Assembly (NCBI GenBank): GCA_023954635.1
Contig: JAGSHI010000020.1
Location: forward strand, 1 to 38,819
DNA length: 38,819 nt
Source: Bacteriovoracaceae bacterium
Lineage (GTDB): Bacteria > Bdellovibrionota > Bacteriovoracia > Bacteriovoracales > Bacteriovoracaceae
Reading direction: 5' to 3'
The notes under the pieces are model-generated. The model saw nothing but the letters and a program-made list of their open reading frames with translations. It was not told the origin of the DNA and made no database searches. Positions 3,938-34,515 of this stretch are shown in pieces (the stretch's first letter is position 1; every line of letters starts with the position of its first letter). The position numbers and the translations under genes are program-made.

Positions 3938-6900
3938 TTATTTTAATTGTTTTATGAGCCCCTCGATCTGACCTCGGTCTGGAGCGTTCGGATATATTTG
4001 TAAATACGTTTCAAATGACTCTATAGCCAGTCCTGATTGCCCACTGGCGCGATAGACATAACCCAATTGCTTATGAATTTCAGGGTTTCCTTCTTCTTTT
4101 TTCTTGGCCCTCAGCAGCAATTCCCTCGATTCTTCATTAAAATTTTGCCGAAGTTTAATTGCAGCTAGCCCCAAAAGTGCCTCTACATATTTTCCGTTTA
4201 TAGAAATGGCCTTTTCATAGTTCTTGGTAGCATCCAACCATTTTTTTAATTTCAAGTTTGCTTCGGCCCTCACAAAGTAACCAAATTCCAATGTAGGGTT
4301 AAGTTTTACTTCTTCTTCTGCAAACTCTAGTGCTTTTTTTGCATCCCCCATGGCCATATAAGTTTTAGCCAAATAGTAATGTGTTTTCGGAAACGATTTG
4401 AGACGTTCAGTGATTGATAAAAATATTTCTATCGCAGATCGATATTGTTTTTCCCTAAATAGATATTCACCAAGAGTCATTCTTGTTTCAAGATCACCAG
4501 GGTTAACCTTAATTAACATTCGAGCGTATTTAATAACATCTTTATATCTTTCATCAAGCTTCGCAGCTTTGATAAGAAACTCATAAAAAGATTGGTCTTT
4601 CTTTACTAAGTTTTCAACTCGCTTTTTGTATTCTTCGAATTGTTTCATCTGACCACTTTTATAATAATAAATGGCCATCTCACCTAAGATTTGAGGATGA
4701 TCTTTATTCTCACTTAAAACATCTCTTAAATAACCAAGAGCTGCATCGATGTCTGAACGTTCGTATAAAATTCTTGCGTAGGTGAGCCTATAATCGACAT
4801 TTCGTGGATCTAGAGAAATAGATTCAGACAACATCTGCTTGGCACGATCATATTTTCTATTTTTTAAATAAACTTTTGCCAAAATAAAATAATCCCTATC
4901 ATTAAGGGGATATCGCTTAATAGACTCCTTAAGCCACTTTACAGTAAGAACAGGGTTATTTCTTTTATTATAGTATCGACCAAGAACAGAAGCATATTGA
5001 TAAGAAGCCCTAAATTTAGTTTGAGATACAACGTTAATTAATTTATTAGCATCAGCTAGTTTCATACTATCGATATAGGCCATGATTAATTTAAAGTTTA
5101 TACCTACATTGAGAGGGTTTTCAGTTCTTAGTTTTTCTAATGTACTTATCGCTGATTCGAAATAGCCTCGCATCACCTGAATCTCAGATAAAAGCAACTG
5201 AGCTGGAATATAAGCTGGCCCTAAATCTGCTGCCTCAATAGCCGTTTTGAATGCTTTCTCCCATTCCTTTCTTTGAGCAGAAAGTCTCGCTTTTTTCATA
5301 AGCTCGATAACTTTTGATTGGAGAATTAAGTTTTCAACAGAGGAATCTCCACCCAGGCTCAGTGCCGCAAGTTTTGATCGTAAAACATCGGACTCCTCAA
5401 TTTTGAGTGCAAGATTGAAAAGCTCAGCGGCTTTTACATTATTTTTATTAATCGCACTCATCATCCCCATATTTTCTAAAAATTTAGCATAATAGATTGG
5501 ACTTCCTTCACTACCAAGTTCTTCAACTCGCTGAAGAAGGATTTTATATTTTCGATAGTCGCCCTTTTCTAATTGATAATCTGAAAACTTTAGAAGCATA
5601 GGAACACTGTTAGGAAACTTCTTTAATCCTTCTTGGATTAAGGAATAACTCTCATCTTTTCTTTCATCGAGTTCTAAAAATCTCGCAAGAGACAGATAAA
5701 CCTCAATCGTTTTCTTCGGAAGATCTTTTAACTTATCATAAACTTTTCGAGATTTTACCAAGTCTCCAGATTCTCTCAAAACATCCATATATAGGGCCAT
5801 TAACTTTACGGTCGGCTTTCCAACTCGAATAAAGTTTTCGATTACATTTATAGATGTTTGGTATTTTTTGTATTCTGAATAAAACCTTGCTGCACCCATG
5901 GCAACATTTATATCTTTTAGTATTCTTGTTCTTCCGATCTTTAACAATTTAAAGAGGGTATTAGCGGCCTTTATTTTATCTTTAGCATTCCTAAAAATTT
6001 CAGCGTAAGTCAGGATTAACCAACCCAGGGCCTTATTTCCCCGAAACTGATAACTCAGACTATTTTTAAATAATATAGCTGCTTTTACAGTATTTAAATA
6101 TCCACCTTTAGAATAAGTTTCAACCCCCATCGCTAGGCTTTCTCTAGACTTTACCTCATCCATAACTTCGAATGTAACAGGAAATGATATTGTTATTCTT
6201 TGGGGAACAGGCTTAACTTTTTCTTCATCAGTATAGAGAAACCAAATAATTACGAGAAAAGCAAAGGCGACAATAGGCTTCATAGGCTTTTTCTTTTCTT
6301 CGCCGTCTCCTTTTTCTTTTTTCTTTTTCTTTTCTCTTTTGGGAATTGAGATTTTTTCTTTTTCTTCTATTATTTTTCTTTGAAATTCTTTTTCAGCAAT
6401 TAATGACTCATTTTTAACTGAAGGCAATAGTTCATTTAGGTTAGCCACTACGGTGGCCTCATTATAATCAACGTTCTCCTCAAGCTCCTCTTCTTCCTCC
6501 GGCTCTTCAACTTCTTCTGGCTCAGGCTCGGGTTCTGGTTCAGGATCCGGCAATCTCGTCACCACCGTTTTATCGAGATCATCTTCTCCACTTGTTACTG
6601 GCCTTCTAAGCACAACCGTTTTCTCAACGCCCTCATCTTCTTCCTCTTCCTCTTCTGGTTCTGGGGCAGGCTCCGTTTCTACTTCTTCTTGTTTCTTTTC
6701 ATAGTTTTTTTCTAATTCGTCATAGTTTACTTTGACGTCAGCATTGCCCTCTTTTGAGAATTTAAACTCTTCAAGTTTTTCTGATGGATTCTCTTCTTCT
6801 TCAGATTTTATAGACTTTAATTTTTTGGCAAGATTAACTCGAGCAAGGGTATCAACAGTTGTCTTATCCTGAAGATCTTCAGCTTGTTTCTTCTTAGAGA

Positions 6901-7087
6901 TGATTAACTTTATGGCATCTGTTATGACTTTAAAGTCTTTAACTTTATTCCAGTCACCACCTGGAAACATTTGGCAGTCCTCAGACCCAGTAATGTGTCC
7001 TTTTTCATACAGTTCACCAATTTGACCTGCATTGAACGGTCCAACGATTCGACCGGATGACAATTTAACTCTGTATTTCTTTTTCAT
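3938..7087 (-). CDS. GYF-domain / transmembrane / TPR-superhelix protein, last gene of the nuo operon
   Basis: The 1049-residue protein has four parts. Residues 1-60 resemble the GYF_2 (DUF4339) fold: YRVKLSSGR, then GPF at 16-18, a helix, and GGDW around 43-46. Residues 60-265 are a charged cytoplasmic linker rich in Glu and Pro, with the short motif [DE]xT[TV]V at 74, 155, 172 and 210. Residues 271-285 form one membrane helix after a lysine-rich stop, which predicts N-inside topology. Residues 340-1049 are some 14 or more TPR or TPR-like helix pairs, predicted periplasmic. The start overlaps the N' stop by four bases (ATGA), so it is coupled to the second complex I arm. Cytoplasmic GYF plus one helix plus a large periplasmic domain recalls the topology of Myxococcus gliding protein GltJ, but this is an analogy only. 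Function unknown. Confidence 0.75.
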   Translation of the reverse strand: MKKKYRVKLSSGRIVGPFNAGQIGELYEKGHITGSEDCQMFPGGDWNKVKDFKVITDAIKLIISKKKQAEDLQDKTTVDTLARVNLAKKLKSIKSEEEENPSEKLEEFKFSKEGNADVKVNYDELEKNYEKKQEEVETEPAPEPEEEEEEDEGVEKTVVLRRPVTSGEDDLDKTVVTRLPDPEPEPEPEPEEVEEPEEEEELEENVDYNEATVVANLNELLPSVKNESLIAEKEFQRKIIEEKEKISIPKREKKKKKEKGDGEEKKKPMKPIVAFAFLVIIWFLYTDEEKVKPVPQRITISFPVTFEVMDEVKSRESLAMGVETYSKGGYLNTVKAAILFKNSLSYQFRGNKALGWLILTYAEIFRNAKDKIKAANTLFKLLKIGRTRILKDINVAMGAARFYSEYKKYQTSINVIENFIRVGKPTVKLMALYMDVLRESGDLVKSRKVYDKLKDLPKKTIEVYLSLARFLELDERKDESYSLIQEGLKKFPNSVPMLLKFSDYQLEKGDYRKYKILLQRVEELGSEGSPIYYAKFLENMGMMSAINKNNVKAAELFNLALKIEESDVLRSKLAALSLGGDSSVENLILQSKVIELMKKARLSAQRKEWEKAFKTAIEAADLGPAYIPAQLLLSEIQVMRGYFESAISTLEKLRTENPLNVGINFKLIMAYIDSMKLADANKLINVVSQTKFRASYQYASVLGRYYNKRNNPVLTVKWLKESIKRYPLNDRDYFILAKVYLKNRKYDRAKQMLSESISLDPRNVDYRLTYARILYERSDIDAALGYLRDVLSENKDHPQILGEMAIYYYKSGQMKQFEEYKKRVENLVKKDQSFYEFLIKAAKLDERYKDVIKYARMLIKVNPGDLETRMTLGEYLFREKQYRSAIEIFLSITERLKSFPKTHYYLAKTYMAMGDAKKALEFAEEEVKLNPTLEFGYFVRAEANLKLKKWLDATKNYEKAISINGKYVEALLGLAAIKLRQNFNEESRELLLRAKKKEEGNPEIHKQLGYVYRASGQSGLAIESFETYLQIYPNAPDRGQIEGLIKQLK

Positions 7088-8430
7088 TTTAAACTATTTA
7101 ATAAAATAGTTGGTTTGACGCTTAAAACGACAAGAATAACCAACACTGTTGCACTGTACAATTGTAACCCAATTGTATCTTTCAACACAGTGTAATTATT
7201 AAGCCGACGCTCTGAAGAGTAACGATAAAATTTTAGGAAAAAAAGTCCTGCAATAACAACAGATCCTGCAGTAATAAACTCAAGTATATGTCCATTGGAA
7301 ACGAGAGACTTTAGAAGAAGAACCCTAATTTCAAATCCAGGAAACCCGGGAACTCCGACCATTGAACCCAAGCATATTAAGATGAGAACAAGGGGCAGTG
7401 GATTTTTAGGGATAAAAACATTTTCTGATGACTTCTCCAGATATTTTAAAGAATGGGGAATCAGAAGTGAAAAACTAATTCCTGTAATTAAAATATAAAG
7501 AACAGCAATTTCTTGGATCAATTCAGAATTTTCCAAAGTAAAAGTAAAAACTAAACATCCCATCAGAGCAGAATAAAGATAACTAACAGAGTCAAAGAAA
7601 TCTTTACCCCAAGCAGATATTAACGATGCATATACAATTGTTACAAAGCCAAGAATTCTTAAAACAAAGTAGAGGTACTCTTTATGTACGGGATCCATAT
7701 GACCAACGAGGGTCAGTAAAATTTTAACAGTAGCTAAATATATTCCTGATTTTACGATGAGTAAGCCAAGCGTGAACGTATCTACTTTTCCAGACCGAAC
7801 TATATCTGTGTCGTTACTATGAAATGGAAACACTCCTAGTTTTGATAGAAAATATATAAAAAACATAAGAACTGAAATGGAATACATTTCAGGTGCAACA
7901 ACTGATATTTCGGTGAGAGTAATATTGCCTGTAGAAATTCTTAGAAAGACCAGGAACAACAAAAAGAACCCTGCATAGAATTCGTTTTTTATAAACAATC
8001 GAAGAGAATTTAAACTTATATTCCGTCCTTCCTCTAACGCCATAAATCCAATCATAGAATAAAAAGTCATTTGCGATGATATAAAGAACAGAATAAGTGA
8101 GTTAAAACCAAGGCAACAAAGAATAGAAAAAATAGTAAAGCAAGAGACAATAGACTTTATAAGACCTTTACGAGTGTCTTCAATTAAAAAGAACCCGAGG
8201 ACCTGAATAACAACCAAAGCGATGGCCAATCGATACGAAAACCCAGACAGGTTATATATTTCTCCAAGCTTAATCTCGCCAAAGTTTACAATTTTGAACA
8301 GCAAAATTAATTGAAGTCCTCCAAAGAGTAGTTTAGAGATTCCATAATGAGAATATTTTGACACTCCAAACAATGTTATAGTGAAAAAAATTAAAAAGTA
8401 TATTCCAAGGAAATTTAATACTTCAATCAT
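7084..8430 (-). CDS. N': diverged NuoN-like antiporter subunit of a second complex I arm
   Basis: The 448-residue multi-helix membrane protein aligns with the intact NuoN of this operon (489 residues). The broken-helix segment K197-LGVFPFH204 matches NuoN K224-IACVPFH231, and K227 lies exactly 30 residues on, as K254 does in NuoN. Both channel lysines are thus kept. The essential glutamate of TM5 (E139 in NuoN, in YIGIETLSI) is Q120 here, and the TM12 lysine (GFVAK) is replaced by arginine (GFEIR). It overlaps M' by four bases upstream and the GYF-TPR gene by four bases downstream. An MrpD-like antiporter is possible from this gene alone, but the A'-H'-J' neighbours favour a complex I origin. 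Confidence 0.8.
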   Translation of the reverse strand: MIEVLNFLGIYFLIFFTITLFGVSKYSHYGISKLLFGGLQLILLFKIVNFGEIKLGEIYNLSGFSYRLAIALVVIQVLGFFLIEDTRKGLIKSIVSCFTIFSILCCLGFNSLILFFISSQMTFYSMIGFMALEEGRNISLNSLRLFIKNEFYAGFFLLFLVFLRISTGNITLTEISVVAPEMYSISVLMFFIYFLSKLGVFPFHSNDTDIVRSGKVDTFTLGLLIVKSGIYLATVKILLTLVGHMDPVHKEYLYFVLRILGFVTIVYASLISAWGKDFFDSVSYLYSALMGCLVFTFTLENSELIQEIAVLYILITGISFSLLIPHSLKYLEKSSENVFIPKNPLPLVLILICLGSMVGVPGFPGFEIRVLLLKSLVSNGHILEFITAGSVVIAGLFFLKFYRYSSERRLNNYTVLKDTIGLQLYSATVLVILVVLSVKPTILLNSLK

Positions 8431-9614
8431 ACTATCTTCTCCTCGGAAAATTCAGACTTTTTGAATAATCCCCTCGGAAGAGAGGACAAAATAGCCAAGA
8501 GTGATAGTATTCCCAGGATACCGAGGGGAGGTTGCTTTTCTAACACAATTTTTAATACAGATAAGATACGCTCTTGCATTGGCAAAAATGGAAAAGGGCC
8601 CACTAAGATGAAAATCAAAAGCCAATATACCGAAGTTAAGACTGCATTATCTTTAATCTTATATAAGTATGATTCAAATACTTCTCTTACAAAAAAGAAT
8701 AATAATAGTTGAAAATAAATATAGTAATTTGCCGTTTCAATTAGCTGACAGTTTAAGATACAGATAAAGAGAAGTACGAATTTAAGCTGAGAAAGCCTAT
8801 TGATTTGAGATTCTCTTTCATTATTTAAAATCAGATATATCGATATTGGAAAAGTTATACTTATAAAAATAAAAAAGTCTTCCATGTATGTATGATTCCA
8901 ACCAACGCTGGTTAAGAAATATTGCATAACAGAGAATACTCCTATCACTGAAATCAAGTTACTGCTCAATCTACTTTCAACAGGAATATCATCTTTTTTA
9001 GACTTGTGAAAAAGTTCTTCAAGGAATCCGAGACGTACAATGAGATATATAAAAATCAATACGTTTCTAATAAACACTGTTTTTAAATCAAAATCTTGGA
9101 GGAAAAAAACAATTGTTAACATCGTAATTGCTGAGCAAACGCCATTTTTCAAAAGGTAATATTGTCGAACTTCAGAATATTTTGCATCGAGATATCCCAA
9201 CACAACGATCAAGGAAACAAGATCTAAAACTATCATTCTCAAGATTAGTGAATTTACAAGAAACAAACCATAGAGCAATATTGGAAAAACAGACAAGCAC
9301 AGTATTTTCTTTTTAACTTCTACAATATTTTGTTTAGACAACACCCAAACCATAAGAGGGTAGATCAGGGATATCATTAATACTTCATCTATGCGAAGAC
9401 CTATCCCCACAGGAATTTCTATTATATTTCCTATTAAATATTCTTTATCTATCGGATTATTTACAATATTTTGATTTGAAAAGTAGAGACAAAGAGGTGA
9501 TGCAATAGCCGTTACGAGCAGGACCCAGCCTTCTTTCATTCGATTCATAATAAATGGCAACGCGATGGCCATTATTATAAAAAACAAAAATGTATACATA
9601 ACGTCTAACATCAT
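8427..9614 (-). CDS. M': shortened, diverged NuoM-like subunit
   Basis: A 395-residue membrane protein, against 515 for the intact NuoM. Position in the operon and weak local similarity identify it. GLRIDEVLM (72-80) fits NuoM GVDGISLPM, and SLILRMIVLD131 fits the TM5 segment ending in W143-E144, so the key glutamate appears to be aspartate. The TM7 lysine seems to be R194 (IVRLGF), but this part needs a two-residue gap and is tentative. The C-terminal third is shorter than in NuoM. It has four-base overlaps with both L' and N'. Without the neighbours one would call it only a hypothetical membrane protein. Confidence 0.65.
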   Translation of the reverse strand: MMLDVMYTFLFFIIMAIALPFIMNRMKEGWVLLVTAIASPLCLYFSNQNIVNNPIDKEYLIGNIIEIPVGIGLRIDEVLMISLIYPLMVWVLSKQNIVEVKKKILCLSVFPILLYGLFLVNSLILRMIVLDLVSLIVVLGYLDAKYSEVRQYYLLKNGVCSAITMLTIVFFLQDFDLKTVFIRNVLIFIYLIVRLGFLEELFHKSKKDDIPVESRLSSNLISVIGVFSVMQYFLTSVGWNHTYMEDFFIFISITFPISIYLILNNERESQINRLSQLKFVLLFICILNCQLIETANYYIYFQLLLFFFVREVFESYLYKIKDNAVLTSVYWLLIFILVGPFPFLPMQERILSVLKIVLEKQPPLGILGILSLLAILSSLPRGLFKKSEFSEEKIV

Positions 9615-11224
9615 AAAATCAACTTAATATAAAAAATTAGAATTATAGCGGTCAAAACCATCGCATATAATAAATTAGAATTTATCCCCTTGGGTCGAAT
9701 ACGGCTTAACCACCAACCAATATTTCCCAACACATCAACAAGAAATAATACCGGATAAACAAATGCCCCCCTCAATACTAACTCAAGTCCATTTCGAGTT
9801 GGGACGCTTAATCGATACATATTAATAGTGAAACTTTTATCCTCTACGTTAATTCTCTTAACAATAGTCCCCTTAAGTACAAACCTAACCCTTTCGATTG
9901 ATGAGTTGTTTAATAGACCCTTCCTTCTTAGAGTGACAAATACTGCTCCAAGTACAACGGGTAATAAAATTGAACAAAAGAATAATATATTTTTTAAACG
10001 CCAATTGACCCCAGGGTCCCCAGAGATCTCTAACCCAATTTTTTTCATTAAGATAAATGAATTACTTTCTGCAAAAACATCAGGAATTGTTAAATAGTAC
10101 GAAGTTCCAATAACCAAAAGGATTAGTAATGATTCACAGATATCTAAAGGTAACGGGCGATCACTATGTTCAGGTTCCATAAATTTATCATAAAGTTGAT
10201 CAATCGATATCCAAAATAGATATAAAGCAACAACCACGAAAGGAAGAAGGTAAAGCAAGCTAGCGTCCCTGGCCACAAACTCTGTTATCAAGAAATATAA
10301 GCTCCATCCGCCAGGGAAAAATGGCGCAAGACACAAACCACAAAGGAGTATGAGAGATGTAATTTTTTTTATCTTAATAAAATTTCCATTCTCAATAAAC
10401 TCTAAGCTCATTATTGCCCAAGATGCTAAATAAATGACCCATATAACGGATACTACTCCCGTAGATAAGATCAGCCCCAGAGCAGTTACATAGCATGAGA
10501 GAAGTAGGCCCTTGTGTTTATTTATCTTTTCTCCGCTAAACTCTAGACCAGCAAAAAGAAGCCCAAGGGCCATAAAAGCTAAACCAAAGTATTCTTTTAA
10601 ATCACCGTATTCTGAAGACAATACGTAAGGAACAATAAAGCCAAGCTCTGCTAAAACAAATATTAATTCAACAAACGAGCTATCTTTTTTATTTTCAAAA
10701 TTAAATTTATAAAAAAGAATTTTTATAAAGATTGTTATCATCACCATGATGAAGGCATATTCCGCAGGTAAAACGTATAAAGTAATGAGCAAGGCTGAGA
10801 ATAATAAAAACATGAATTTTACAGCAACTTCGTTTCTAAGCGACTCTCTTGGTAAAAAGATTGTCGATAAAGAAGAAACAAGTAAGTAGGAAAGTATATT
10901 TCCAGAACAAAAAGATAAAGAAAGTATCAATATCGGTATTGTAAATTTTGAGTCATTTAAAAAGACATTCGGGATAAACAATAAAAATATTGCAAAAAAT
11001 ATTATTGAGGTCCCGGTGACACTAAAACTAAGTCCCGTGTCAAAGAGGTTTATTTCTTCTGATCCGACCACACCAAAGGTAACAAACCCAAGAATAGTAA
11101 TCGTTACCAAATGAGTAAATAGTCTAACATACTGAGGGTTTGACTGAACCCAATCCTTAGCCTTCTTATTGAAAAGACTTAGGGCAAATAGTAAATATAT
11201 TATAACAATTGATATAACTATCAT
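9611..11224 (-). CDS. L': diverged NuoL-like subunit
   Basis: The 537-residue membrane protein corresponds to NuoL (723 residues in this operon). SGNILSYLLVSSL (107-119) aligns without gaps to NuoL SDNLLSVFIFWEL (143-155). This places S118 where NuoL has the functional E154, so the TM5 glutamate is lost. An intramembrane lysine (K168) may correspond to NuoL K244, though a gap of about 40 residues lies between. A C-terminal amphipathic stretch and a final membrane helix are kept, recalling the NuoL lateral helix and its anchor. It overlaps K' and M' by four bases each. Family assignment rests on position, hydrophobicity and these short matches. Confidence 0.65.
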   Translation of the reverse strand: MIVISIVIIYLLFALSLFNKKAKDWVQSNPQYVRLFTHLVTITILGFVTFGVVGSEEINLFDTGLSFSVTGTSIIFFAIFLLFIPNVFLNDSKFTIPILILSLSFCSGNILSYLLVSSLSTIFLPRESLRNEVAVKFMFLLFSALLITLYVLPAEYAFIMVMITIFIKILFYKFNFENKKDSSFVELIFVLAELGFIVPYVLSSEYGDLKEYFGLAFMALGLLFAGLEFSGEKINKHKGLLLSCYVTALGLILSTGVVSVIWVIYLASWAIMSLEFIENGNFIKIKKITSLILLCGLCLAPFFPGGWSLYFLITEFVARDASLLYLLPFVVVALYLFWISIDQLYDKFMEPEHSDRPLPLDICESLLILLVIGTSYYLTIPDVFAESNSFILMKKIGLEISGDPGVNWRLKNILFFCSILLPVVLGAVFVTLRRKGLLNNSSIERVRFVLKGTIVKRINVEDKSFTINMYRLSVPTRNGLELVLRGAFVYPVLFLVDVLGNIGWWLSRIRPKGINSNLLYAMVLTAIILIFYIKLIL

Positions 11225-11520
11225 TGCACCCTGATCTTCATATCTTCAGTCATTAATGTCTTTTTGGACTTATAAAACTTTACTGAAAACATTATTCCCA
11301 TTGCTAACTGGATAACGCTATAGAGAATGAGAATCAGAGGAAGATGAAATTGCTCAGTAGTTTTCATCTCTCCTTGGAGTACTAAAAACATCAAAGCTGT
11401 GGTTATTGTCATAATTGTTAGGCAAAGGATTGATGTTAGAATATTTCTCTTAAGGATCACTCCGGCCATTCCCATAAAAAAGAGAATAAGAAGAGGGTAT
11501 AATTCTTTATTTATCATCAT
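11221..11520 (-). CDS. K': diverged NuoK-like subunit lacking both key glutamates
   Basis: A 99-residue, three-helix protein that aligns along its whole length with the intact NuoK (101 residues): LKRNILTSIL matches ARKNIIAILL, and IQLAMGIM matches AEAAVGLA. In NuoK two membrane glutamates (E36 and E73 here) are needed for proton transfer. The equivalent positions in K' are T35 and Q71, so both charges are gone. MrpC/MnhC is the only other family of this size and fold. Two adjacent ATG codons (11520 and 11517) could start it. It overlaps J' by 14 bases and L' by four. Confidence 0.75.
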   Translation of the reverse strand: MMINKELYPLLILFFMGMAGVILKRNILTSILCLTIMTITTALMFLVLQGEMKTTEQFHLPLILILYSVIQLAMGIMFSVKFYKSKKTLMTEDMKIRVQ

Positions 11521-11971
11521 CGAATAACCCCACGAGTAGAACGATACCCAATAACATCATCATGGTAATCACCAAGATGACAGCATATTCTTGCTGAATA
11601 TCTGTTTTTAAATGTGCTTTTTCGATTAGACCTTTTTTTTCTGTTAAATGAATAACTAAACTAATTCCGCCAAGAGTGAATGCAGTGAAAATCATTCCCA
11701 CGACAGGAGTTATGTTTTTCTTATATGCTTTTTGAAACTCTTTTTCTAAGTCTACATTCATAAATAGCTGCAAACAGATCATTAAAGTTGAAACGAGTAA
11801 TAAAAACAGGACAATCGTCGAGTCCATAATATTGTTTTTCAATATGAATGTTATAAAGACGAGAAAAGAAAAACCAAAAAATGTAAATCCAGAGATTAGT
11901 GGTAGCCTCGAAAATATCGATGTCGCCCCAACAATCAAGATACCCAATAAAAGATAGAACATTATACCCAT
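11507..11971 (-). CDS. J': diverged NuoJ-like subunit
   Basis: 154 residues from the ATG at 11971, chosen because AAAGGAGAT precedes it at good distance; a longer frame reaching 12046 would run deep into H'. The protein has about five membrane helices and a charged loop near residues 74-88. The NuoJ TM3 segment with the conserved Y62-V-G-G65 pi-bulge motif aligns with L57-L-L-V60, so the flexible glycines used in complex I coupling are absent. It lies between H' and K', exactly as nuoJ lies between nuoH and nuoK, and overlaps H' by ten bases. Confidence 0.65.
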   Translation of the reverse strand: MGIMFYLLLGILIVGATSIFSRLPLISGFTFFGFSFLVFITFILKNNIMDSTIVLFLLLVSTLMICLQLFMNVDLEKEFQKAYKKNITPVVGMIFTAFTLGGISLVIHLTEKKGLIEKAHLKTDIQQEYAVILVITMMMLLGIVLLVGLFDDDK

Positions 11972-13011
11972 CCTATCTCCTTTAATAATTTGAAAACATA
12001 AGTTCCAAGTGCATTTAGCAAAAGCACAGGCGTCCAAAACTTCCACGCCTTATTAAGCAGCTGGTCTGTTCTGAGTTTTGGAATAAGCCATTTTACACTT
12101 GAGCTTAATGCAAGAATTATCATTGATTTTGTCATCAATGATCCAATTTGAACGAAGTAGAGAGAATTCGGAAAGTTTTCTATTAGAAACTCACTTCCTG
12201 GTATTACGTCATAGCCCCCCAAAAAAAGATGGCAAAAAAGTATGGAGTGACAAAAAAGGTTTATACGCTCTGAAATACTCGTCATATAAAGAGTTACAGA
12301 GTTCATATAAAAACCAAGATTGAACCTTGTTCCAGAAAGCTCAAAATTAAATATATTTTTAAGATACAAGGCCTTGACTGTAATATAGTAAAAATAGGCG
12401 AGGGCCACTATAGGCTGCAAATATATGCCATTAAGGTCAAGCTTTCCAAAGAGGACCTTATTTTGAATATTGTTTATCTGATGAAAATCTGCTGATTGAT
12501 AGGTAACTGTCATTATTAAAGTAATAATTAAGAACAAAAGTTCTATTGAAAAAAACTGCATGATTTTTTTTAAGTTACCCAAAATCGCTAAGTTATTATT
12601 TACACTCCAACCAATTAATATATGTGTAACTACGCTAACTTCAACCAGTGCAAGAAACATGAATACAGAGTTCGTATCTGAGAAAATTTCTGATTTTAAA
12701 ATCGCTCTGTTATAAACAAGGGGTTCACAGAACGTTAGAACCGCTAATGGCAATAATGATACTCCAAAGTGAAGCATCGGCATGAACAAACTTTTTGAGA
12801 GACTGCCCGTTTTATAATAGGCTAATTCTTTAAAAAATGAGTGAAAGAATCCCATTGGTCGAATCTTAATGCTATTTATTGATTTACCTATGCTCTTAGA
12901 TGAATACAAGTTGAGAAGAGACTTTTCTACAACGACTGCAATCAATATCGATAGCCCACATACAACAGCAAGAAAAATCATTTTTAATGGTAGGATATAC
13001 AGGTCAGTCAT
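11962..13011 (-). CDS. H': diverged NuoH-like subunit
   Basis: A 349-residue membrane protein, against 398 for the intact NuoH. Clear landmarks remain: VEKS (28-31) for AERK, a GWSVNNNLAI-to-SIE block for GGYSSNSKWS-to-SYE, LGGYDV for LGGYQV, and the C-terminal LRTDQLLNKAWKFWTP for LRVDQLMTLCWKYLTP. The cytoplasmic loops that hold the quinone channel and bind the peripheral arm are not conserved: RQGPNRVGPFG and the ETNRAPFDLPEAE acidic funnel are both lost. It is thus unlikely to form a quinone site with NuoB/NuoD. The start overlaps the A' stop by eight bases. Confidence 0.8.
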   Translation of the reverse strand: MTDLYILPLKMIFLAVVCGLSILIAVVVEKSLLNLYSSKSIGKSINSIKIRPMGFFHSFFKELAYYKTGSLSKSLFMPMLHFGVSLLPLAVLTFCEPLVYNRAILKSEIFSDTNSVFMFLALVEVSVVTHILIGWSVNNNLAILGNLKKIMQFFSIELLFLIITLIMTVTYQSADFHQINNIQNKVLFGKLDLNGIYLQPIVALAYFYYITVKALYLKNIFNFELSGTRFNLGFYMNSVTLYMTSISERINLFCHSILFCHLFLGGYDVIPGSEFLIENFPNSLYFVQIGSLMTKSMIILALSSSVKWLIPKLRTDQLLNKAWKFWTPVLLLNALGTYVFKLLKEIGWV

Positions 13012-13354
13012 CTAGACGAATTCCCCCAGATGCCCTTGCGATCAAATAACCAACAATAGTGACAATTAATATCCAACAGCTCATAAGTAGATAAGGCCAA
13101 TTTTCTTTTCCGAACCCAAAATGTACTCTAAGCATTATCAAGAGTGAGATACAAACTGATAAAAAACTAAACAGTATTGAGAGAGTAAAGTAATTATTCT
13201 TATGGCGATTTGTTTTTCGAATAAAGCTTTTAACGCCGCTTTCTAGAGATTCTACTTCTTTTTTAGAGTAAGACTTGGACTTTAAGACGAGGGCCACAGC
13301 AATTGGAATACCAACTGCTGAGAAAATAAAGATAAAGAAGTGTTGAAGATCCAT
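13004..13354 (-). CDS. A': diverged NuoA-like subunit
   Basis: A 116-residue, three-helix protein aligning with the intact NuoA (148 residues) through the central part without gaps. The loop motif Y46-E-C-G49 is L37-E-S-G40 here, removing the conserved cysteine that reports the active/deactive state in mitochondrial ND3. The membrane motif F74-D-V-E77 becomes L65-S-V-C68, so both acidic residues of the E-channel are lost. It is the first gene of the second set, 13 bases after nuoN, which shows that the two sets are transcribed together. Confidence 0.75.
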   Translation of the reverse strand: MDLQHFFIFIFSAVGIPIAVALVLKSKSYSKKEVESLESGVKSFIRKTNRHKNNYFTLSILFSFLSVCISLLIMLRVHFGFGKENWPYLLMSCWILIVTIVGYLIARASGGIRLDD

Positions 13355-13367
13355 TCAACTTATTTTC

Positions 13368-14837
13368 CTATTTCCCAAGGAAAATTGAAGCCCCTTCCGT
13401 CAAATGCATAATTCCACTCCAGAAAATTCCAATCATTACAACAGGAACAGTCATGGTCATAATTATACTTTGATTTAAGGCTCCAAAACCAACAATGGGC
13501 TCCATAGATTCTACTTCTCTGAAAACCATCAGTCTGATAATTTTCATATAGTAGTAAAGTGATACAACAGAGTTAAGTACTGCAATCAGTGCAAGAATGT
13601 AATACTTCTCTGAGAGTAGAGCACTTAGAATATTAAACTTCGCAACGAATCCACTTAGAGGTGGCATACCAGCAAGCGAGAACATTACGATACTCATCAT
13701 TATAGTCATCATTGGGTATCTTTTAATCAATCCGCTAAACCTTTCGAAGTGATCATTCCCATATTTATCGGCTACAAATGAAGTTATAAAGAAGGCCACA
13801 AGTGTCATGAATAGATAAGTAATTGAATAGAAAAGAATTGATCTAGTCCCAATTTCACTTACTACAACAACACCCATCATCATCATCCCAGCATGGGATA
13901 TCGAACTAAAGGCCAGCATTCTTTTAACTGATCTTTGTCCAATGGCCGAAACATTTCCGACAGTCATTGTTAGTGCGGCGACAACAGAGAGTATGCCAAC
14001 CCAGCTCACCTGGAGCGCACCTTCTTGACCGAAGAAAACCATAGTAACTCTTAAAAGAACTGCCATACCTGCGACTTTAGGAACAATACTAAAGAAGGCC
14101 GTAACAGGAAGAGGTGAACCTTCATAAACATCAGGGGCCCACATATGAAAAGGAACACAAGCAATTTTGTATCCAATTCCCGCGAAAAACATAATAAAAG
14201 ATGGAATTAAAACGGCAGTTTCAAATGTGCTTAACTCGTAAAGGCCAGCCATTATTTCTGGGAATTGAATTGAGCCAAGCATTCCAAAGATATGACTCAT
14301 TCCAAACAACATCACACCAGATGAGATCCCTCCATAAAGAGAGTATTTAAGACCAGCTTCACTAGATCTTTCTTCATTCTTTTTAAAGGAAGCCAATGCA
14401 TAAGATAAAATCGATAAGGTTTCGATTCCAATATAAACCATAAGAAGATTGTTTGCCGAAGCGAGTATCATTCCGCCAATCATCACCCCGATAGTCATTA
14501 TTGCAAATTCAGATTTTAACGAGCCGTATATATCCTTAGATTCTTTACTTAGGTAAATCGCTGCCATTGTCCCAAGAACCATAATTATTTTAACGAGTGT
14601 CGAGAACGGATCTATCACCATTGAATTCGTAAAGATTGCAGATGGCGCTTCAGTTAAGCTAACGCAAAGGTTTATGAAAACAAAAAGAAGACCAATAAAG
14701 GTTGCGGCATAAAAGAAACCTTTCTTTCTTTCGCTATTATCATAACAAGATTCAATAAGAACTAAACCGACCATAATCACAACTGAGAGTAACTCTGGTA
14801 CATACCTAGAAATGCTAGCTAAATAATTGATCGCCAT
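13368..14837 (-). CDS. nuoN: NADH-quinone oxidoreductase subunit N
   Basis: NuoN is one of the three antiporter-like proton-pumping subunits of complex I. The 489-residue protein has the expected 14-helix pattern and the functional residues E139 (YIGIET), K224 (GYKIACVPFHMW), K254 (IVPKVAG) and the TM12 lysine in SGFVAK. WAPDVYEGSP is diagnostic for the family. It follows nuoM by 10 bases and precedes A' by 13 bases. Nothing suggests loss of function. Confidence 0.95.
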   Translation of the reverse strand: MAINYLASISRYVPELLSVVIMVGLVLIESCYDNSERKKGFFYAATFIGLLFVFINLCVSLTEAPSAIFTNSMVIDPFSTLVKIIMVLGTMAAIYLSKESKDIYGSLKSEFAIMTIGVMIGGMILASANNLLMVYIGIETLSILSYALASFKKNEERSSEAGLKYSLYGGISSGVMLFGMSHIFGMLGSIQFPEIMAGLYELSTFETAVLIPSFIMFFAGIGYKIACVPFHMWAPDVYEGSPLPVTAFFSIVPKVAGMAVLLRVTMVFFGQEGALQVSWVGILSVVAALTMTVGNVSAIGQRSVKRMLAFSSISHAGMMMMGVVVVSEIGTRSILFYSITYLFMTLVAFFITSFVADKYGNDHFERFSGLIKRYPMMTIMMSIVMFSLAGMPPLSGFVAKFNILSALLSEKYYILALIAVLNSVVSLYYYMKIIRLMVFREVESMEPIVGFGALNQSIIMTMTVPVVMIGIFWSGIMHLTEGASIFLGK

Positions 14838-14847: not shown

Positions 14848-16395
14848 TTAATTAAATTTCGCCAATAGTGAAACTAAGTTACCTACTGATACTTTCATTA
14901 CATCTAATATTGGAGTTGGATAAATACCAAATACTACAACTGCAACAATGAGTGGACTCATGTAAAAAATTTCACGAGCATTCATGTCTGTATACGATTT
15001 ACATTCTTCAATAACTTCTCCAAAGAACATTCTCTTAAACATCCACAGAAGATAAGCTGCACCAATCAATAGTCCAAACAATGCAAGAACAGTGATAGTT
15101 GTATACTTCTCATAGATTCCTAGGAAGATAAGTGCTTCAGAGATAAATCCAGAGAGTCCAGGAAGTCCCATAGAAGCAAACATCGCTATGATAAAGACGA
15201 TGCTGTATTTTGGAAGTTGAGTATAAAGACCACCAAAACCTTTTGTTCCATCAGGTCTAACAATCCATCTATGGTGAGATCTTTCATATAAGATACCTAC
15301 CAAGAGGAACATCATCGCTGTTGAAGTTCCGTGATTAAACATTTGTAAAACGGCACCGTTCATACCCTGAACTGTCATGGCCGCAAGACCTAGCATTACA
15401 AACCCCATGTGAGATACCGAAGAGTAAGCAATAAGTTTTTTGACGTCTGTCTGGGCCATGGCACAAAGAGCACCATAAACAACATTGATAAGTCCAAGCC
15501 AAGCAATGCAATCAGCAAAGTGTACTGATGCTTGTGGAAAGATAGGGAAGGCAATTCTTAAGAATCCGTAAGTTCCCATCTTTAGTAGAACACCGGCCAG
15601 TATCACTGAAATAGCAGTAGGGGCCTGAACGTGCGCATGTGGTAACCAAGTGTGAAATGGAAATACAGGTACTTTAATCGCAAAGCCTATAAACATCATC
15701 ACAAAGAAAAACTTAGAGAATGAAATATCCATTCCGAAAAGTCTAAGAGATAGATCGGTAAACTTTCCACCTGACATGGCCAAAATATCAAACGTGTTCG
15801 TTCCAATATCTGGGTTGTCTGCAGAAACAAAGTATAGTGCAACCATACCCACTAGCATCAATACAGAACCAAAGAAGGTATAAAGGAAGAACTTAACCGC
15901 TGCGTATTCTCTGTTTTCTCCACCCCAAATTCCAATAAGAAAGAACATTGGAATAAGCATAACTTCCCAGTAAACATAGAAAAGGAAGAAGTCGAGAGAC
16001 ATGAACACACCAAAAACACTACTTTGCAAAAAGAGAAATAATGCGAAGTAACCTTTCACACTCTTCGATATTGTCCAGCTACACAGGATACATAAAGAAA
16101 AGAGTAGGGAAGTTAAGACAATCATCGGTAATGAGATTCCATCAACACCTAGGGAGTAGTTAATATTGAACTGACTAATCCATGGATGGAAAACATTAAA
16201 GTACTGCTGCATTCCAGGTACTGTTGGATCAAACTTCATATATAAAACAATCGTTAAAGCAAAAGTAATGATTGTATTAAACAATGCTGTGTATCTGATC
16301 CAGTTTTCTTTGGTCTTTGGGATAAGTAGAATTGCCAAAACTCCTAGCATTGGCATCCACAAAATCAGGTTCAACAAATTAGAATGACCGTTCAC
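14848..16395 (-). CDS. nuoM: NADH-quinone oxidoreductase subunit M
   Basis: Antiporter-like proton-pumping subunit of the complex I membrane arm, 515 residues. E144 (VYWEVMLIPMF) is kept at the same number as in E. coli, as are the TM7 lysine in FAIKVPVFPFHTWLPHAH, the TM8 lysine in LLKMGTYG and the TM12 glutamate in SGFISEAL. Length and helix pattern are normal. It lies between nuoL (31 bases upstream) and nuoN (10 bases downstream). Confidence 0.96.
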   Translation of the reverse strand: MNGHSNLLNLILWMPMLGVLAILLIPKTKENWIRYTALFNTIITFALTIVLYMKFDPTVPGMQQYFNVFHPWISQFNINYSLGVDGISLPMIVLTSLLFSLCILCSWTISKSVKGYFALFLFLQSSVFGVFMSLDFFLFYVYWEVMLIPMFFLIGIWGGENREYAAVKFFLYTFFGSVLMLVGMVALYFVSADNPDIGTNTFDILAMSGGKFTDLSLRLFGMDISFSKFFFVMMFIGFAIKVPVFPFHTWLPHAHVQAPTAISVILAGVLLKMGTYGFLRIAFPIFPQASVHFADCIAWLGLINVVYGALCAMAQTDVKKLIAYSSVSHMGFVMLGLAAMTVQGMNGAVLQMFNHGTSTAMMFLLVGILYERSHHRWIVRPDGTKGFGGLYTQLPKYSIVFIIAMFASMGLPGLSGFISEALIFLGIYEKYTTITVLALFGLLIGAAYLLWMFKRMFFGEVIEECKSYTDMNAREIFYMSPLIVAVVVFGIYPTPILDVMKVSVGNLVSLLAKFN

Positions 16396-16426: not shown

Positions 16427-18598
16427 TTATACTAATTTCCAAATATATCCGACCATAACAACGAGAAAGATAATAAAGTAAAACTGTATCTTTCCATTTT
16501 GAAAGGTTCTTAATATCACATTAAAAAATCTTACTGATGCACCTGTTCCGTCAACACCGACGCTATCAACAATTACATCATCAACCCATTTTGCAATTCG
16601 ATAGAAGAATCTGTTAACCGCTTCCCAACCGTCAACGGCATAGCGATCAAAAACTCCCATATCAAATCTCGATAAAAGATTATTAAAAGGTAGCAATCCC
16701 TTTTGAAGGATTCCTTTTACATACAAATCATCAAAGTAATATTTGTTTTGAAGGGCCCTGTACCAACCACTGAAAGCATTTACCCAACGACCAGGATTCC
16801 ACGCTCCTCGTGAGTACATCATGAAAGCAATAAACCAACCAGCAAGAGCAATTGCTATTGAGGCCCATGCACCAATCGCGTGGACGAGGTGAACATGGTG
16901 AGCTTCTTTTTCTGTAAAGTATTTATCTGGATTGAACTGAGACTCTTCAAAGACTCTGTCTGCTCCAGTATCAACACTTCCAAAAGGCAATGATTTATAG
17001 GCCTTGAAGTTTTCTACTCTAGGCTTTTCAATTAAAGTAGCAAACCATTCCTTATGTTCAACACCTGGAATTTTTACCCAACCACCAAAGAAGTGACCTG
17101 AGTACCAACCACCAAGAGTAAAAACAGTTAAGATTAAAAGAGGTAAGTTTCTATTCCAACTTAGCTTTTCAACATGAGTATGATCGTAAAGATCTTTATC
17201 TCTTGGCTCACCAAAGAAAGTTAAGAACATCATTCTAAACATATAAAAGGCTGTTAAAAGAGCCGCTGTAAATCCTAAGAACGCTGGGATCCAGTAGGCC
17301 TTACTTTGAGTGGCCATTACAAGTGCATCACCCAGAATTCTGTCTTTAGAAACGAAACCACTAAAGAGCGGGAATCCTGCAATGGCAAATGTACAACAGA
17401 GCATCGCTATAAAGGTAAGAGGCATTTTCTTTCTAAGTCCACCCATACGTGGCATTTCTTGAACGTGGCCATGGGTATGGTGATCGTGAAGTGAGTGAAT
17501 GACTGAACCCGCAGCCAAAAATAAACATGCTTTAAAAACAGCATGAGTAATTAAGTGCATGAAGGCGGCATTATAAGCCCCAACTCCAATCCCTAGAACC
17601 ATATAACCAAGTTGAGAAATCGTTGAGTAAGCAAGAACAGCTTTTATATCTGTTTGGACGAGTGCAATCGTTGCGGCCCCAAAAGCAGTTATTGCTCCAA
17701 TATAGGCAATAAAGGTTGTGATACCTCCAAGCTCCATTAAAGGATACATTCTTAAAGAGAGATAAACTCCGGCAGCAACCATAGTTGCAGCATGGATAAG
17801 CGCCGAACAAGGAGTTGGTCCCCACATCGCATCCGGTAGCCAAACCTGAAGTGGAAACTGAGCTGACTTTCCAATTGTTCCCATAAAAACGGAAAGGGCC
17901 GCGAAAGTTGCGAGTGGCAATCCTACGGCATAAAGTCCGTTGAAAGATCCATCTGCAATGGCCGCATAAATATCAACAAATCGAACACTTCCAACAGTTG
18001 TCCAAATGGCCAAGATTCCAACAAGGAAAAAGACGTCCCCAATTCTTGTTGTCATGAAGGCTTTCATAGATGCATTTCCAGCACCCTCTTTTTCGTAGTA
18101 GAAACCAATCAAAGAATATGAACAAAATCCCATAAGTTCCCAGAAGATGAAAACTGATAAGAGGTTGTCAGAAAGAACAAGTCCCAACATTCCAGTAGTA
18201 AATAAAGAGAGATAAACAAAAAATCTTCCGTATCTCGCATCACCGGCCATGTAATAAGTTGAAAAGATGTGAATAAGGAATGCACATCCAGCAACCATGA
18301 AAAGCATAACAGCTGACATGTTATCTAAATAGATACCCATATCTACAGCGAAGTTTGAAACTCCTGCTGCTTTCAGGTCAAACCATGGAAAAACTTTATG
18401 TACGTAATATCCAGTAGAATACTTTCCGAATACAAAGTCTTTGAAGATTCTAAATGAATAGAAAAGTGAGACAAACATACCAAAACAACTTAGAAAAACT
18501 CCAAGTTTAGTCCACTTCTTTACTATAAAGATATTGACCACAAAGGCCAAAAATGGACCGAGTAAGATTGGTAGAATACTTCCTAGTGTATATTCCAT
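16427..18598 (-). CDS. nuoL: NADH-quinone oxidoreductase subunit L
   Basis: The distal antiporter-like subunit with the long lateral helix. E154 in FIFWELMGFCSYSLIGF, K244 in GKSAQFPLQVWLPDAM, and HAATMVAAGVYL are all present. At 723 residues it is longer than the E. coli protein (about 613), mainly through a soluble-looking segment around residues 490-560 and an extended C-terminus ending in a membrane helix. The AHHVHLVHAIGA region precedes the lateral helix. It follows nuoK by nine bases. Confidence 0.96.
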   Translation of the reverse strand: MEYTLGSILPILLGPFLAFVVNIFIVKKWTKLGVFLSCFGMFVSLFYSFRIFKDFVFGKYSTGYYVHKVFPWFDLKAAGVSNFAVDMGIYLDNMSAVMLFMVAGCAFLIHIFSTYYMAGDARYGRFFVYLSLFTTGMLGLVLSDNLLSVFIFWELMGFCSYSLIGFYYEKEGAGNASMKAFMTTRIGDVFFLVGILAIWTTVGSVRFVDIYAAIADGSFNGLYAVGLPLATFAALSVFMGTIGKSAQFPLQVWLPDAMWGPTPCSALIHAATMVAAGVYLSLRMYPLMELGGITTFIAYIGAITAFGAATIALVQTDIKAVLAYSTISQLGYMVLGIGVGAYNAAFMHLITHAVFKACLFLAAGSVIHSLHDHHTHGHVQEMPRMGGLRKKMPLTFIAMLCCTFAIAGFPLFSGFVSKDRILGDALVMATQSKAYWIPAFLGFTAALLTAFYMFRMMFLTFFGEPRDKDLYDHTHVEKLSWNRNLPLLILTVFTLGGWYSGHFFGGWVKIPGVEHKEWFATLIEKPRVENFKAYKSLPFGSVDTGADRVFEESQFNPDKYFTEKEAHHVHLVHAIGAWASIAIALAGWFIAFMMYSRGAWNPGRWVNAFSGWYRALQNKYYFDDLYVKGILQKGLLPFNNLLSRFDMGVFDRYAVDGWEAVNRFFYRIAKWVDDVIVDSVGVDGTGASVRFFNVILRTFQNGKIQFYFIIFLVVMVGYIWKLV

Positions 18599-18607: not shown

Positions 18608-18913
18608 CTATTGTAACAACTGGGTAGCATCATCAATATGAATGCTTTCCCTGATCTGAAAAAATCTAATAACAATTGCTAAACCAACAGCTGCTTCTGC
18701 AGCGGCTATAATAATGATAAAAAGGGACATGATATGCCCGTCCAGGTTGTTGTTCACAAACCTGGTATAAGCGACAAAATTTATTGCACAAGAATTAAGG
18801 ATTAGCTCAACCCCAAGAAGTATCGCAATAATATTTTTTCTTGCGATCATTACTGCGATTCCACAAACAAACAATAAGAATGAGATCGCCAAATAGCTCG
18901 ATAATGTAATCAT
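18608..18913 (-). CDS. nuoK: NADH-quinone oxidoreductase subunit K
   Basis: A three-helix membrane-arm subunit of 101 residues. The two essential buried glutamates are visible: E36 (LLGVELILNS) and E73 (AAAEAAVGLAIV). The RKN loop and the length match the family. The start overlaps the nuoJ stop by four bases. It provides the intact reference for K' at 11221-11520. Confidence 0.96.
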   Translation of the reverse strand: MITLSSYLAISFLLFVCGIAVMIARKNIIAILLGVELILNSCAINFVAYTRFVNNNLDGHIMSLFIIIIAAAEAAVGLAIVIRFFQIRESIHIDDATQLLQ

Positions 18914-19449
18914 GATTCTATTTTCCTTGGTCTAGCGATCAATGCCGCTCCAATCAAAGCTCCAAGCAACAAGACAGATGAAATTTCAAAAGCAAGTACA
19001 TGGTCAGTAATTAACAATTCACCAATTTTTTCAACTGTTGAAGAAAAAGGTGGAAGCTCACCCTTTGGCACAGCCTTAGTAACGTTTACAATTATTTTTG
19101 AGATTACGAGGGCCATTAATAGGGCCGATAGTCCAGCAAGAGTAAATGTTTTAATATTACCCATAGGTGCAATCTTCTCAATACCGAACTTATTCACCGA
19201 TTTATTATCGTTTCCGCCAGTTAACATAATGGCAAAAAGCATAAGAATAACAACGCCACCAACATAAACAACCAATTGAGTTGCTGCTAAAAAGTCAGCA
19301 CTTAATGTTACATACAAACCAGAAACTCCTATTAATGAAGTCAGTAGATATGTACATGCATGCATGAGGTTTGGTGATAAAACTACTGCAAGTGCACCAC
19401 AAACTGTTAGGGCCGCAGAAGATATAAATAAAAAATTATCAAACATCAC
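18910..19449 (-). CDS. nuoJ: NADH-quinone oxidoreductase subunit J
   Basis: A 179-residue membrane-arm subunit with five helices. The TM3 motif Y62-V-G-G65 in LVVYVGGVVILMLFAIML is intact; it forms the pi-bulge that changes during turnover in structures of complex I. It follows nuoH by 14 bases, and nuoI, which commonly lies between nuoH and nuoJ, is missing. Confidence 0.94.
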   Translation of the reverse strand: MMFDNFLFISSAALTVCGALAVVLSPNLMHACTYLLTSLIGVSGLYVTLSADFLAATQLVVYVGGVVILMLFAIMLTGGNDNKSVNKFGIEKIAPMGNIKTFTLAGLSALLMALVISKIIVNVTKAVPKGELPPFSSTVEKIGELLITDHVLAFEISSVLLLGALIGAALIARPRKIES

Positions 19450-19463: not shown

Positions 19464-20660
19464 TTAATGGCCACCGGCCGCTGCTGCACCACTTTTAAAG
19501 ATAAGATTCCACATGGATTCTCCGTCAAAGTAGTAAACCCAAAAGGCAACACCAACAAGATTGATTAGTGCAATTGGGGTTAAGTATTTCCAACAAAGTG
19601 TCATTAGTTGATCAACTCTAAGTCTAGGTAACGTCCATCTGATCCAAATAACGACGTAATAAAGTGCACATGTTTTTGAAACAAAACCACCGACTTCTAA
19701 AAGTTGTCCAAGGATTCGAGCGGGCCCAAGAGGAAGACCAATTTTATTATGAAGAAGAAATGTATCACTTAGCTCAAATGGCACTTGGTAACCACCAAGA
19801 TAGAGAGCGACAGCAACACCACAAAGCACGAAGACTTCAACGTATTCCGCCAAAGCAAAAAACGCAAATCTCATTCCGGTAAATTCTGTATGGTAACCTG
19901 AAACGAGTTCTGATTCAGCTTCAGGTAAATCAAATGGAGCTCTGTTTGTTTCGGCCAGGGCCCCGATAAAAAAGACAATAAAACTAATTACTGTAAAAGG
20001 ATTATGAAAAATAAACCATTGGTGTGGAAGTCCACCCTGAGCACCAACAATATCTTTAAAGTTTAGTCCTCCACCAAGAAGAACCATTGCAATAATTGAT
20101 AATGTAACAGGCACTTCATAACTGATTATTTGAGAAGCTCCTCTCATTCCACCAATCATTGACCACTTAGAGTTTGATGAATATCCACCAAGAAAGATTC
20201 CGACTCCAACAACAGAGGAAACACCAAGAAGATAGAAAACACCAATATTTAAATGAGTAAGAGTAAACCCGGAGCTAAATGGAAGCACGGCAAGAGTTGC
20301 AAAAACACCGGCCATACAAAGAATTGGAGCGATAAAAAAGATCATCTTGTCAGAGTCTTTTGGAACGATATCTTCCTTCATAATCATTTTCACGCCGTCG
20401 GCTAGAAACTGAAGAATTCCAAATGGTCCTACTCTGTTAGGTCCTTGTCTCATTTGCATATCTGCAGAAATTTTTCTTTCTGCATATGTTCCTAAACCAC
20501 CGACAAGGGCCATCACGTTTACAATAACAAAGCATGCAACAAAAAAGGTTACAACTGTTAATAAGCCAGTTGCATTAAAACCTAAATATCTAGTTAGAAG
20601 CTCTGTTACGACTTGGTAAGGATGTGAACCTGAAAAAAATGTAACTACTGTCTCATTCAT
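19464..20660 (-). CDS. nuoH: NADH-quinone oxidoreductase subunit H
   Basis: NuoH forms much of the quinone channel and docks the peripheral arm. The 398-residue protein has AERK (60-63), RQGPNRVGPFG (71-81), GGYSSNSKWSMIGG (158-171), the acidic ETNRAPFDLPEAESE block (237-251) and the C-terminal LRVDQLMTLCWK. It is somewhat longer than the E. coli protein at both ends; the last residues are an Ala/Gly tail ending in His. It follows nuoA by 15 bases. Confidence 0.97.
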   Translation of the reverse strand: MNETVVTFFSGSHPYQVVTELLTRYLGFNATGLLTVVTFFVACFVIVNVMALVGGLGTYAERKISADMQMRQGPNRVGPFGILQFLADGVKMIMKEDIVPKDSDKMIFFIAPILCMAGVFATLAVLPFSSGFTLTHLNIGVFYLLGVSSVVGVGIFLGGYSSNSKWSMIGGMRGASQIISYEVPVTLSIIAMVLLGGGLNFKDIVGAQGGLPHQWFIFHNPFTVISFIVFFIGALAETNRAPFDLPEAESELVSGYHTEFTGMRFAFFALAEYVEVFVLCGVAVALYLGGYQVPFELSDTFLLHNKIGLPLGPARILGQLLEVGGFVSKTCALYYVVIWIRWTLPRLRVDQLMTLCWKYLTPIALINLVGVAFWVYYFDGESMWNLIFKSGAAAAGGH

Positions 20661-34236: not shown

Positions 34237-34515
34237 TTAAACTAGGAATACAGAGATAAGTGTAAAAATCACAAGTGATTCCATAAGTGCAAGACCAAGA
34301 ATCATTGGAGTTTGAATTTTTGCAGCAGCAGATGGGTTTCTAGCGATCCCTTCTAGAGCAACAGAAGCAGCTCTTGATTGAGCAGCTGTTCCACCGAAAG
34401 CAGCAATTGCCATTGCGATGAAATAAGCAGGTGCTTTCCAAGTTGAATCTCCGTCAGCAGCGAAAGCAGCAGAAGACATAAGTAGCATTGGAAGAACATA
34501 AATAAGTTTTTTCAT
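34237..34515 (-). CDS. atpE: ATP synthase Fo subunit c, with signal peptide
   Basis: Subunit c forms the rotor ring. The 92-residue protein starts with a signal peptide (residues 1-20, MLLMSSAAFAA) before the usual two-helix hairpin, an extension not found in E. coli. The loop ALEGIARNPSA joins the helices, and the ion-binding carboxylate is E79 in ALMESLVIF. Q46 in helix 1 and S80 next to E79 match part of the sodium-binding pattern of Ilyobacter/Propionigenium c subunits, but the Thr and Tyr positions are Leu and Phe (L81, F84). Ion choice is therefore open. It is the last gene of its operon, 36 bases after atpB. Confidence 0.95.
   Translation of the reverse strand: MKKLIYVLPMLLMSSAAFAADGDSTWKAPAYFIAMAIAAFGGTAAQSRAASVALEGIARNPSAAAKIQTPMILGLALMESLVIFTLISVFLV

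Follow-up and report, generated by a model that had tools for sequence, protein, structure and literature searches.

The question raised by this locus is why a complete complex I membrane arm should be followed by a second, strongly diverged one. The locus lies in the 38,819-nucleotide stretch analysed here, called the window (positions 1 to 38,819 of contig JAGSHI010000020.1 from a Bacteriovoracaceae genome, assembly GCA_023954635.1). Genomes, genera, families and loci are denoted by G, g, f and L numbers, with G000 the genome and g1 the genus of the window. Behind the canonical nuoAHJKLMN genes, seven consecutive minus-strand frames run from 13354 down to 7084 in nuo order (A'-H'-J'-K'-L'-M'-N'; Table 1), which confirms the full second set described in an initial annotation of the window. 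All seven frames are open, and neighbours overlap by 4-14 bases. The start listed for J', a GTG at 12046, makes this frame too long; the start lies near 11971. A' starts 13 bases past nuoN, and N' overlaps by 4 bases the gene of a protein with a GYF-like domain, a transmembrane (TM) helix and tetratricopeptide repeats (TPRs). This gap and this overlap give the stretch from nuoA to the TPR gene (21122 to 3938) the appearance of a single, probably 15-gene operon. We propose below that the second set comes from the native complex I of these bacteria, which has probably been dismantled as an enzyme and kept as a non-respiratory membrane assembly or platform, a reading that we hold with moderate confidence.

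Family models leave most second-set subunits unnamed, which is a warning for annotation. H', K' and A' were recognised by Pfam above cut-off, N' was named by NCBIfam below cut-off only (Table 1), and J' had no direct family match in Pfam or NCBIfam. Profile-profile comparison with HHalign through less-derived relatives of the second-set proteins (bridging) returned A', H' (1e-37), J', K' (9e-12) and N' to their own classes, the J' match being to J' of less-derived relatives. L' fell into the L/N antiporter class (1e-5 / 3.5e-7) and was also bridged through G001 (HHalign 3e-10, then 1e-8); M' was undetected by bridging (0.011). In Foldseek, the top 31 matches of a weak AlphaFold model of L' (predicted local distance difference test score, pLDDT, 49) were all NuoL/M/N-family chains, including Mrp and formate hydrogenlyase (FHL) antiporter subunits, a result that we treat as supporting only, since less-derived relatives in the alignment behind the model may have biased its fold in favour of NuoL. 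The M' model was poor (pLDDT 48). Direct BLAST of the window's second set against the canonical set matched H' (4e-14) and K' (1e-4), was marginal for N' (0.003) and gave no match for A', J', L' or M'. Of the four subunits that had been judged alignable by eye with their neighbours, H' and K' are thus borne out by BLAST, N' marginally so and A' not. The earlier identities of J' and L' stand through bridging, and that of M' by position. We read the seven proteins as Nuo-homologous subunits of a complex I membrane arm, A', H', K' and N' from direct matches, J' and L' from bridging, and M' from its position. The set does not resemble a Mrp-type antiporter, which combines MrpA-D-type subunits with E/F/G: A', H' and J' are present, and no Mrp E/F/G neighbour was found.

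The adjacency and identical gene order of the two arms are what a recent tandem duplication of the neighbouring nuo set, followed by fast divergence, would leave, and the second set had indeed been described as a copy of the adjacent one. In a concatenated H-L-M-N tree, however, the canonical set of the window clusters with the "first copies" from four other families (Shimodaira-Hasegawa-like approximate likelihood ratio test, SH-aLRT, 100). Only in g15 and g51 does the second arm evolve slowly enough for tree placement; their second set lies in a group of 13 together with Bdellovibrio-type complex I and that of other families (SH-aLRT 95 for this group, 81 for the step at which Bdellovibrio is joined). 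Once relatives are included, the approximately unbiased (AU) test rejects the canonical and second sets as one clade (p 2.9e-71, g15/g51 second arm), which refutes both the duplication and the description as a copy for these two genera. Less-derived second-set subunits are likewise closer to Bdellovibrio-type complex I. Single-gene NuoM trees did not place the second arm (long branches; AU p 0.31 and 0.50), and the concatenated tree settled the placement. The two types also stand in tandem in four other Bdellovibrionota families (f3, f16, f7 and f13), arranged in the same order and with full-length subunits of both recognisable by BLAST, so that the second full set is not without parallel, contrary to what had been supposed. 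Moreover, the nuoN of the native complex is followed directly by the TPR gene in f20, f19, f15, f8, f4 and f7, and in most of these the encoded protein begins with a GYF-like part. The tree grouping, the tandem types and the position of the TPR gene together imply that the second set belongs to an older lineage and represents, as judged from sequence relationships, the membrane arm of the 14-subunit complex I native to Bdellovibrionota (type-2), and that its neighbour is of a different type (type-1). For the window's own genus, the probable type-2 origin and the argument against duplication derive from conserved synteny and from the linked TPR gene; overall, a duplication seems hardly credible.

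Further complex I operons occur in the family. Several genera (L055, L056, L058, L060, L065, L066) carry an additional complete 14-gene operon, nuo2, and individual genomes contain up to three complex I lineages (e.g. G071, G055). The nuo2 operon of g56 and others was considered as the ancestor of the second arm and rejected, because nuo2 forms a separate clade in the trees.

One option in the initial annotation was a machine without a redox domain. A second 49-kDa protein was found in nearly all family genomes; wherever its surroundings were read, it is a NuoCD fusion, within a lipoprotein-NuoB'-NuoCD'-NuoI' cluster (Pfam assignments) located elsewhere in the genome. In g15 and g51, NuoE', NuoF' and NuoG' lie between CD' and I' and complete a 14-subunit set. 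The second set accordingly has peripheral subunits of its own, encoded away from the membrane arm. The G000 contig breaks off within CD' (470 amino acids [aa] seen), and NuoI' of the window's genus was read from G001 and G002, whose second peripheral locus contains no NuoE/F/G. No NuoF-family member was found in G001, and one is present at another locus in G000 and G002; the NuoI' clusters remain. The lipoprotein has many invariant cysteines and occurs in 89 genomes, all of the window's family, and in 0 of ~185 other genomes of the phylum.

The lipoprotein (L129:6553-8217; L127:6198-7847; alignment A2) gives weak inorganic pyrophosphatase matches in three libraries, all far below cut-offs (Pfam 0.0085; NCBIfam 1.9e-4, residues ~160-260; PDB 0.18 with a profile). 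Neither the Halobacteriovorax-type genomes G004 and G076 nor G001 yielded a NuoF-family protein, and the canonical complex I of these three genomes thus appears to be an 11-subunit type without the NADH module.

Catalytic features of the type-2 complex are lost to different degrees among genera. Peripheral proteins are intact in g15 and g51 (NuoE/F/G, the ligands of iron-sulfur cluster N2, and the quinone site). NuoE/F/G are gone and the N2 cysteines retained in g21; N2 is retained and the quinone site altered in g23, g47, g18, g3 and g45; and both N2 and the quinone site are lost in g1, g40, g10, g19 and others. All four N2 4Fe-4S ligands of NuoB' (CC..C..C) are replaced in G000, G001 and G002. 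The THG His and DY Tyr of NuoD, which we take to be quinone-site residues, are also lost (GPHHPVMKN and ERLNHQ/ERLNSQ in G000/G002), and in both respects the proteins depart from those of a functional complex I. By contrast, both CxxCxxCxxxC (4Fe-4S) motifs of NuoI' are kept in most genera, including g1. Along the proton path, the positions tested were A D79/E81, K E36/E72, L E144/K229/K399, M E144/K234/K265/E407 and N K217/K247/K395. In g15 every A, K, L and M position in this list is retained, as are the acidic H loop and the N positions except K247. In the window's genus, where the alignment of L' and M' is uncertain, nearly all of these residues are replaced, again unlike in a functional complex I (A' and K' in Table 1; M' R/L/V/gap/R), and the acidic quinone-chamber loop of H' is remodelled. 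G016 and G042 retain essentially all catalytic features and the window's genus almost none. Among its living members, one family shows the whole series: the complete 14-subunit enzyme, forms that lack the NADH module and the quinone site, and forms in which N2 has gone as well while the membrane arm stays.

These losses bear on whether the type-2 arm could still translocate protons or sodium through rearranged residues and drive the periplasmic TPR protein mechanically, with no redox chemistry. Such a machine would make use of the three antiporter-like subunits, all of which are retained, and of the layout of the TPR protein, which is that of a transmitter of force or signals in the envelope. 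Charged residues in the TM cores of L', M' and N' are present at normal numbers (L' 11/225 vs canonical L 6/210), so some altered ion path could remain. However, the conserved residues lost from A, H, K, L, M and N have no consistent replacement between genera, and some genomes encode L' and M' of no more than ~210-300 aa. The loss of proton-path residues weakens the earlier suggestion of an ion-driven machine without a redox domain, and we consider ion-driven action on the TPR protein unlikely.

No broken frame was found in ~40 loci read; stops inside some search matches most likely reflect alignments running beyond gene ends, and the frames called there are open. For five species pairs drawn from the family's other genera, the ratio of nonsynonymous to synonymous substitution rates (dN/dS) of the second arm was mostly 0.1-0.45 where unsaturated, with one value of 0.71, compared to ~0.02-0.11 for canonical L, M and N, all rough values because many synonymous rates are saturated. 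Selection on the second arm is relaxed but purifying where measurable, in agreement with the initial view, drawn from open overlapping frames, that the set is maintained. The alternative that a redundant complex I is slowly decaying and has no present function would account for the fast evolution of the second arm (28% identity for L' and 29% for M' between G000 and G002, compared to 84-92% for canonical L, M and N) and for the absence of the arm beside the TPR gene in g56, g39, g50, g4, g2 and G020. Yet frames are unbroken, dN/dS is below 1 in all five pairs, operon order is kept across many genera, and the set is retained where no canonical complex I remains to explain the operon; decay is therefore improbable.

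In GTDB, the family of the window's genome also contains metagenome-assembled genomes of Halobacteriovorax and Bacteriovorax. A search for the A'-N' order in other Bdellovibrionota genomes had been proposed as a check, and in ~35 of the loci read the TPR gene is preceded by membrane open reading frames (ORFs) of this order and of approximately these sizes. In many genera A'-N' are too diverged for BLAST and were assigned by order, size and TM count, and at some loci the shortest frames fall below the length cut-off used in reading. The canonical arm is missing, and the second set adjoins mfd, the gene that precedes canonical nuoA in the window, in G013, G011, G061, G058, G019 and G142. In G011, G013, G054 and G060, the CD'-type 49-kDa protein is the only one found. 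The shared operon, with its 13-base nuoN/A' gap, would fit a heteromeric or regulatory arm that swaps into or binds the type-1 complex, as suggested initially, but the set persists both without the canonical arm and where no type-1 49-kDa subunit was found, its own B', CD' and I' degenerate in parallel, and its phylogeny is that of a separate complex. This suggestion is thereby weakened, and we regard it as very unlikely. No report of this second complex was found in the open-licence literature searched.

A different arrangement was seen in g56/g39 (L204 = G125:C1:1086000-1105000; L201 = G056), where the lipoprotein, degenerate B', CD' and an I'-sized ORF occur with a 4-TM ORF of ~360 aa, and no second arm precedes the TPR gene.

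At its N terminus, the 1049-aa protein encoded behind N' carries a GYF-like motif; a single TM helix (near residue 268-286) and TPRs follow. Pfam GYF_2 scores below its own cut-off in relatives and is not among the Pfam matches listed for the window protein. Its topology and published work (PMC12034629) suggest that the TPRs are periplasmic and the GYF domain cytoplasmic. The Bdellovibrio relative (965 aa), the sole match in its genome at the threshold used, carries 13 of the 14 residues numbered for Bd0075 in PMC12034629, and HHalign of the window's protein family against Bd0075 aligned 705 TPR columns (1.5e-30) and the GYF part (5.8e-9). We assign the window protein to the Bd0075 family, as its predicted features (GYF-like, one TM, C-terminal periplasmic TPRs) indicate. 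Killing is abolished and attachment poor in Bd0075::tn mutants, and killing is restored on complementation (PMC6561027). Bd0075 binds Bd0474 (PMC12034629), whose gene shares one operon with tadC (PMC6561027). By analogy, kinship to Bd0075 suggests a role in prey attachment, although this functional link is the weakest in our proposal; no report linking Bd0075 to complex I was found in the literature. In many Bdellovibrionota families the next gene behind the Bd0075-like one is a soluble ORF of ~420-475 aa, in some cases with a small 3-TM ORF in between (L215, L226-L228, L216, L218, L219).

We favor the following sequence of events. The type-2 complex would have been dismantled stepwise in Bacteriovoracaceae, losing NuoE/F/G at its locus, next the quinone site together with residues of the proton path, and in some members, the window's genus among them, the N2 ligands of NuoB'. 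A'-N', NuoB', NuoCD', NuoI' (often with both 4Fe-4S motifs), the lipoprotein and the Bd0075-like protein are mostly retained in frame. Beyond the gene content, lineage, losses, maintenance and linkage described above, we infer that A'-N' and the peripheral proteins still assemble into one large inner-membrane particle, which in the window's genus would carry out no NADH:quinone-driven proton pumping. This complex could be a platform by which the Bd0075-like protein and the lipoprotein are held or gated, as part of an envelope process tied to surface attachment and possibly predation, and the NuoI' clusters may let it sense redox state. A bolder version, that throughout the family a whole complex I has become a non-respiratory envelope machine ("pseudo-complex I") that acts together with the Bd0075-like protein when cells attach to prey or in some other process at the surface, is tentative, and we put it somewhat below an even chance.

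Several points weigh against a retained platform. Bd0075 is not beside nuo in Bdellovibrio, some lineages have the TPR protein and no arm, and g56 keeps lipoprotein-B'-CD'-I' with no second arm detected. As most of the genomes are drafts, a gene missing from one of them is not proven absent. The normal TM-core charges and the saturated dN/dS values from genera other than the window's point the same way. The parts of complex I are generally assumed to persist only because the enzyme pumps, and a non-respiratory function, if true, would be something categorically new. The intermediates in this family make the question of what complex I can be for besides respiration directly testable, the natural variants show which conserved residues serve assembly rather than pumping, and a Bd0075-type link may connect bioenergetics with predation.

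The window also contains ATP synthase subunit c- and a-like genes (34237-35340), with no other F1Fo genes recognised alongside them.

Table 1. Complex I genes and adjoining TPR gene in the window
Feature	Coordinates	Strand	Evidence or remark
A' (NuoA-like, 116 aa, 3 TM)	13004..13354	-	Pfam Oxidored_q4 1.2e-6; bridging HHalign 2e-6; D79/E81 positions are S/C
H' (NuoH-like, 349 aa)	11962..13011	-	Pfam NADHdh 1.8e-26; acidic quinone-chamber loop, otherwise conserved, gone
J' (NuoJ-like, ~154 aa, 5 TM)	11507..~11971	-	bridging HHalign 8e-11; Tyr59 equivalent is L
K' (NuoK-like, 99 aa)	11221..11520	-	Pfam Oxidored_q2 1.1e-10; E36/E72 replaced by T/Q
L' (NuoL-like, 537 aa, strongly diverged)	9611..11224	-	HHalign vs relatives 1e-5 to 3e-10; Foldseek of low-confidence model
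M' (NuoM position, 395 aa)	8427..9614	-	position, TM count and 29% identity to M' of G002 only
N' (NuoN-like, 448 aa)	7084..8430	-	NCBIfam NuoM 4e-8 / NuoN 1.5e-5; bridging HHalign 4e-27; 47% identity to G002
GYF-like domain + TM + TPR protein (1049 aa), Bd0075 family	3938..7087	-	in 115/129 family genomes
nuoN, adjacent type-1 complex I	13368..14837	-	tree
nuoM (type-1)	14848..16395	-	trees
nuoL (type-1)	16427..18598	-	tree
nuoK (type-1)	18608..18913	-	
nuoJ (type-1)	18910..19449	-	
nuoH (type-1)	19464..20660	-	tree
nuoA (type-1), first gene of probable 15-gene operon	20676..21122	-	

Among known systems, the 14-subunit NDH-1 of Bdellovibrionota (e.g. Bdellovibrio) has the same subunits in the same order, and the g15/g51 members, which keep NuoE/F/G, N2 and the quinone site, share a tree group with it. 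In contrast, the set of the window's genus lacks NuoE/F/G at its locus, the N2 cysteines and the quinone-site His/Tyr, retains hardly any canonical proton-path residue, and has shortened L' and M'. NDH-1 classes of 11 subunits without NuoE/F/G include the photosynthetic NDH-1, Fpo and the Campylobacter type. They likewise lack the NADH module and keep B, CD, I and seven membrane subunits, but they retain N2, the quinone site and proton channels, unlike the set of the window's genus. Mrp antiporters, group 4 hydrogenases, FHL and membrane-bound hydrogenase (MBH) share L/M/N-, K- and H-related membrane modules, and some of them are Foldseek matches of L' and M'; however, they have no full A-H-J-K-L-M-N set, carry out working ion and redox chemistry, and have no GYF-TPR partner. 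The 2M-type complex I, with its duplicated NuoM, also has extra antiporter subunits, but as one extra subunit in one complex rather than a second complex. Finally, the predation-essential Bd0075 of Bdellovibrio bacteriovorus shares the GYF-TM-TPR layout and a profile match with the window protein, but its gene is not nuo-adjacent.

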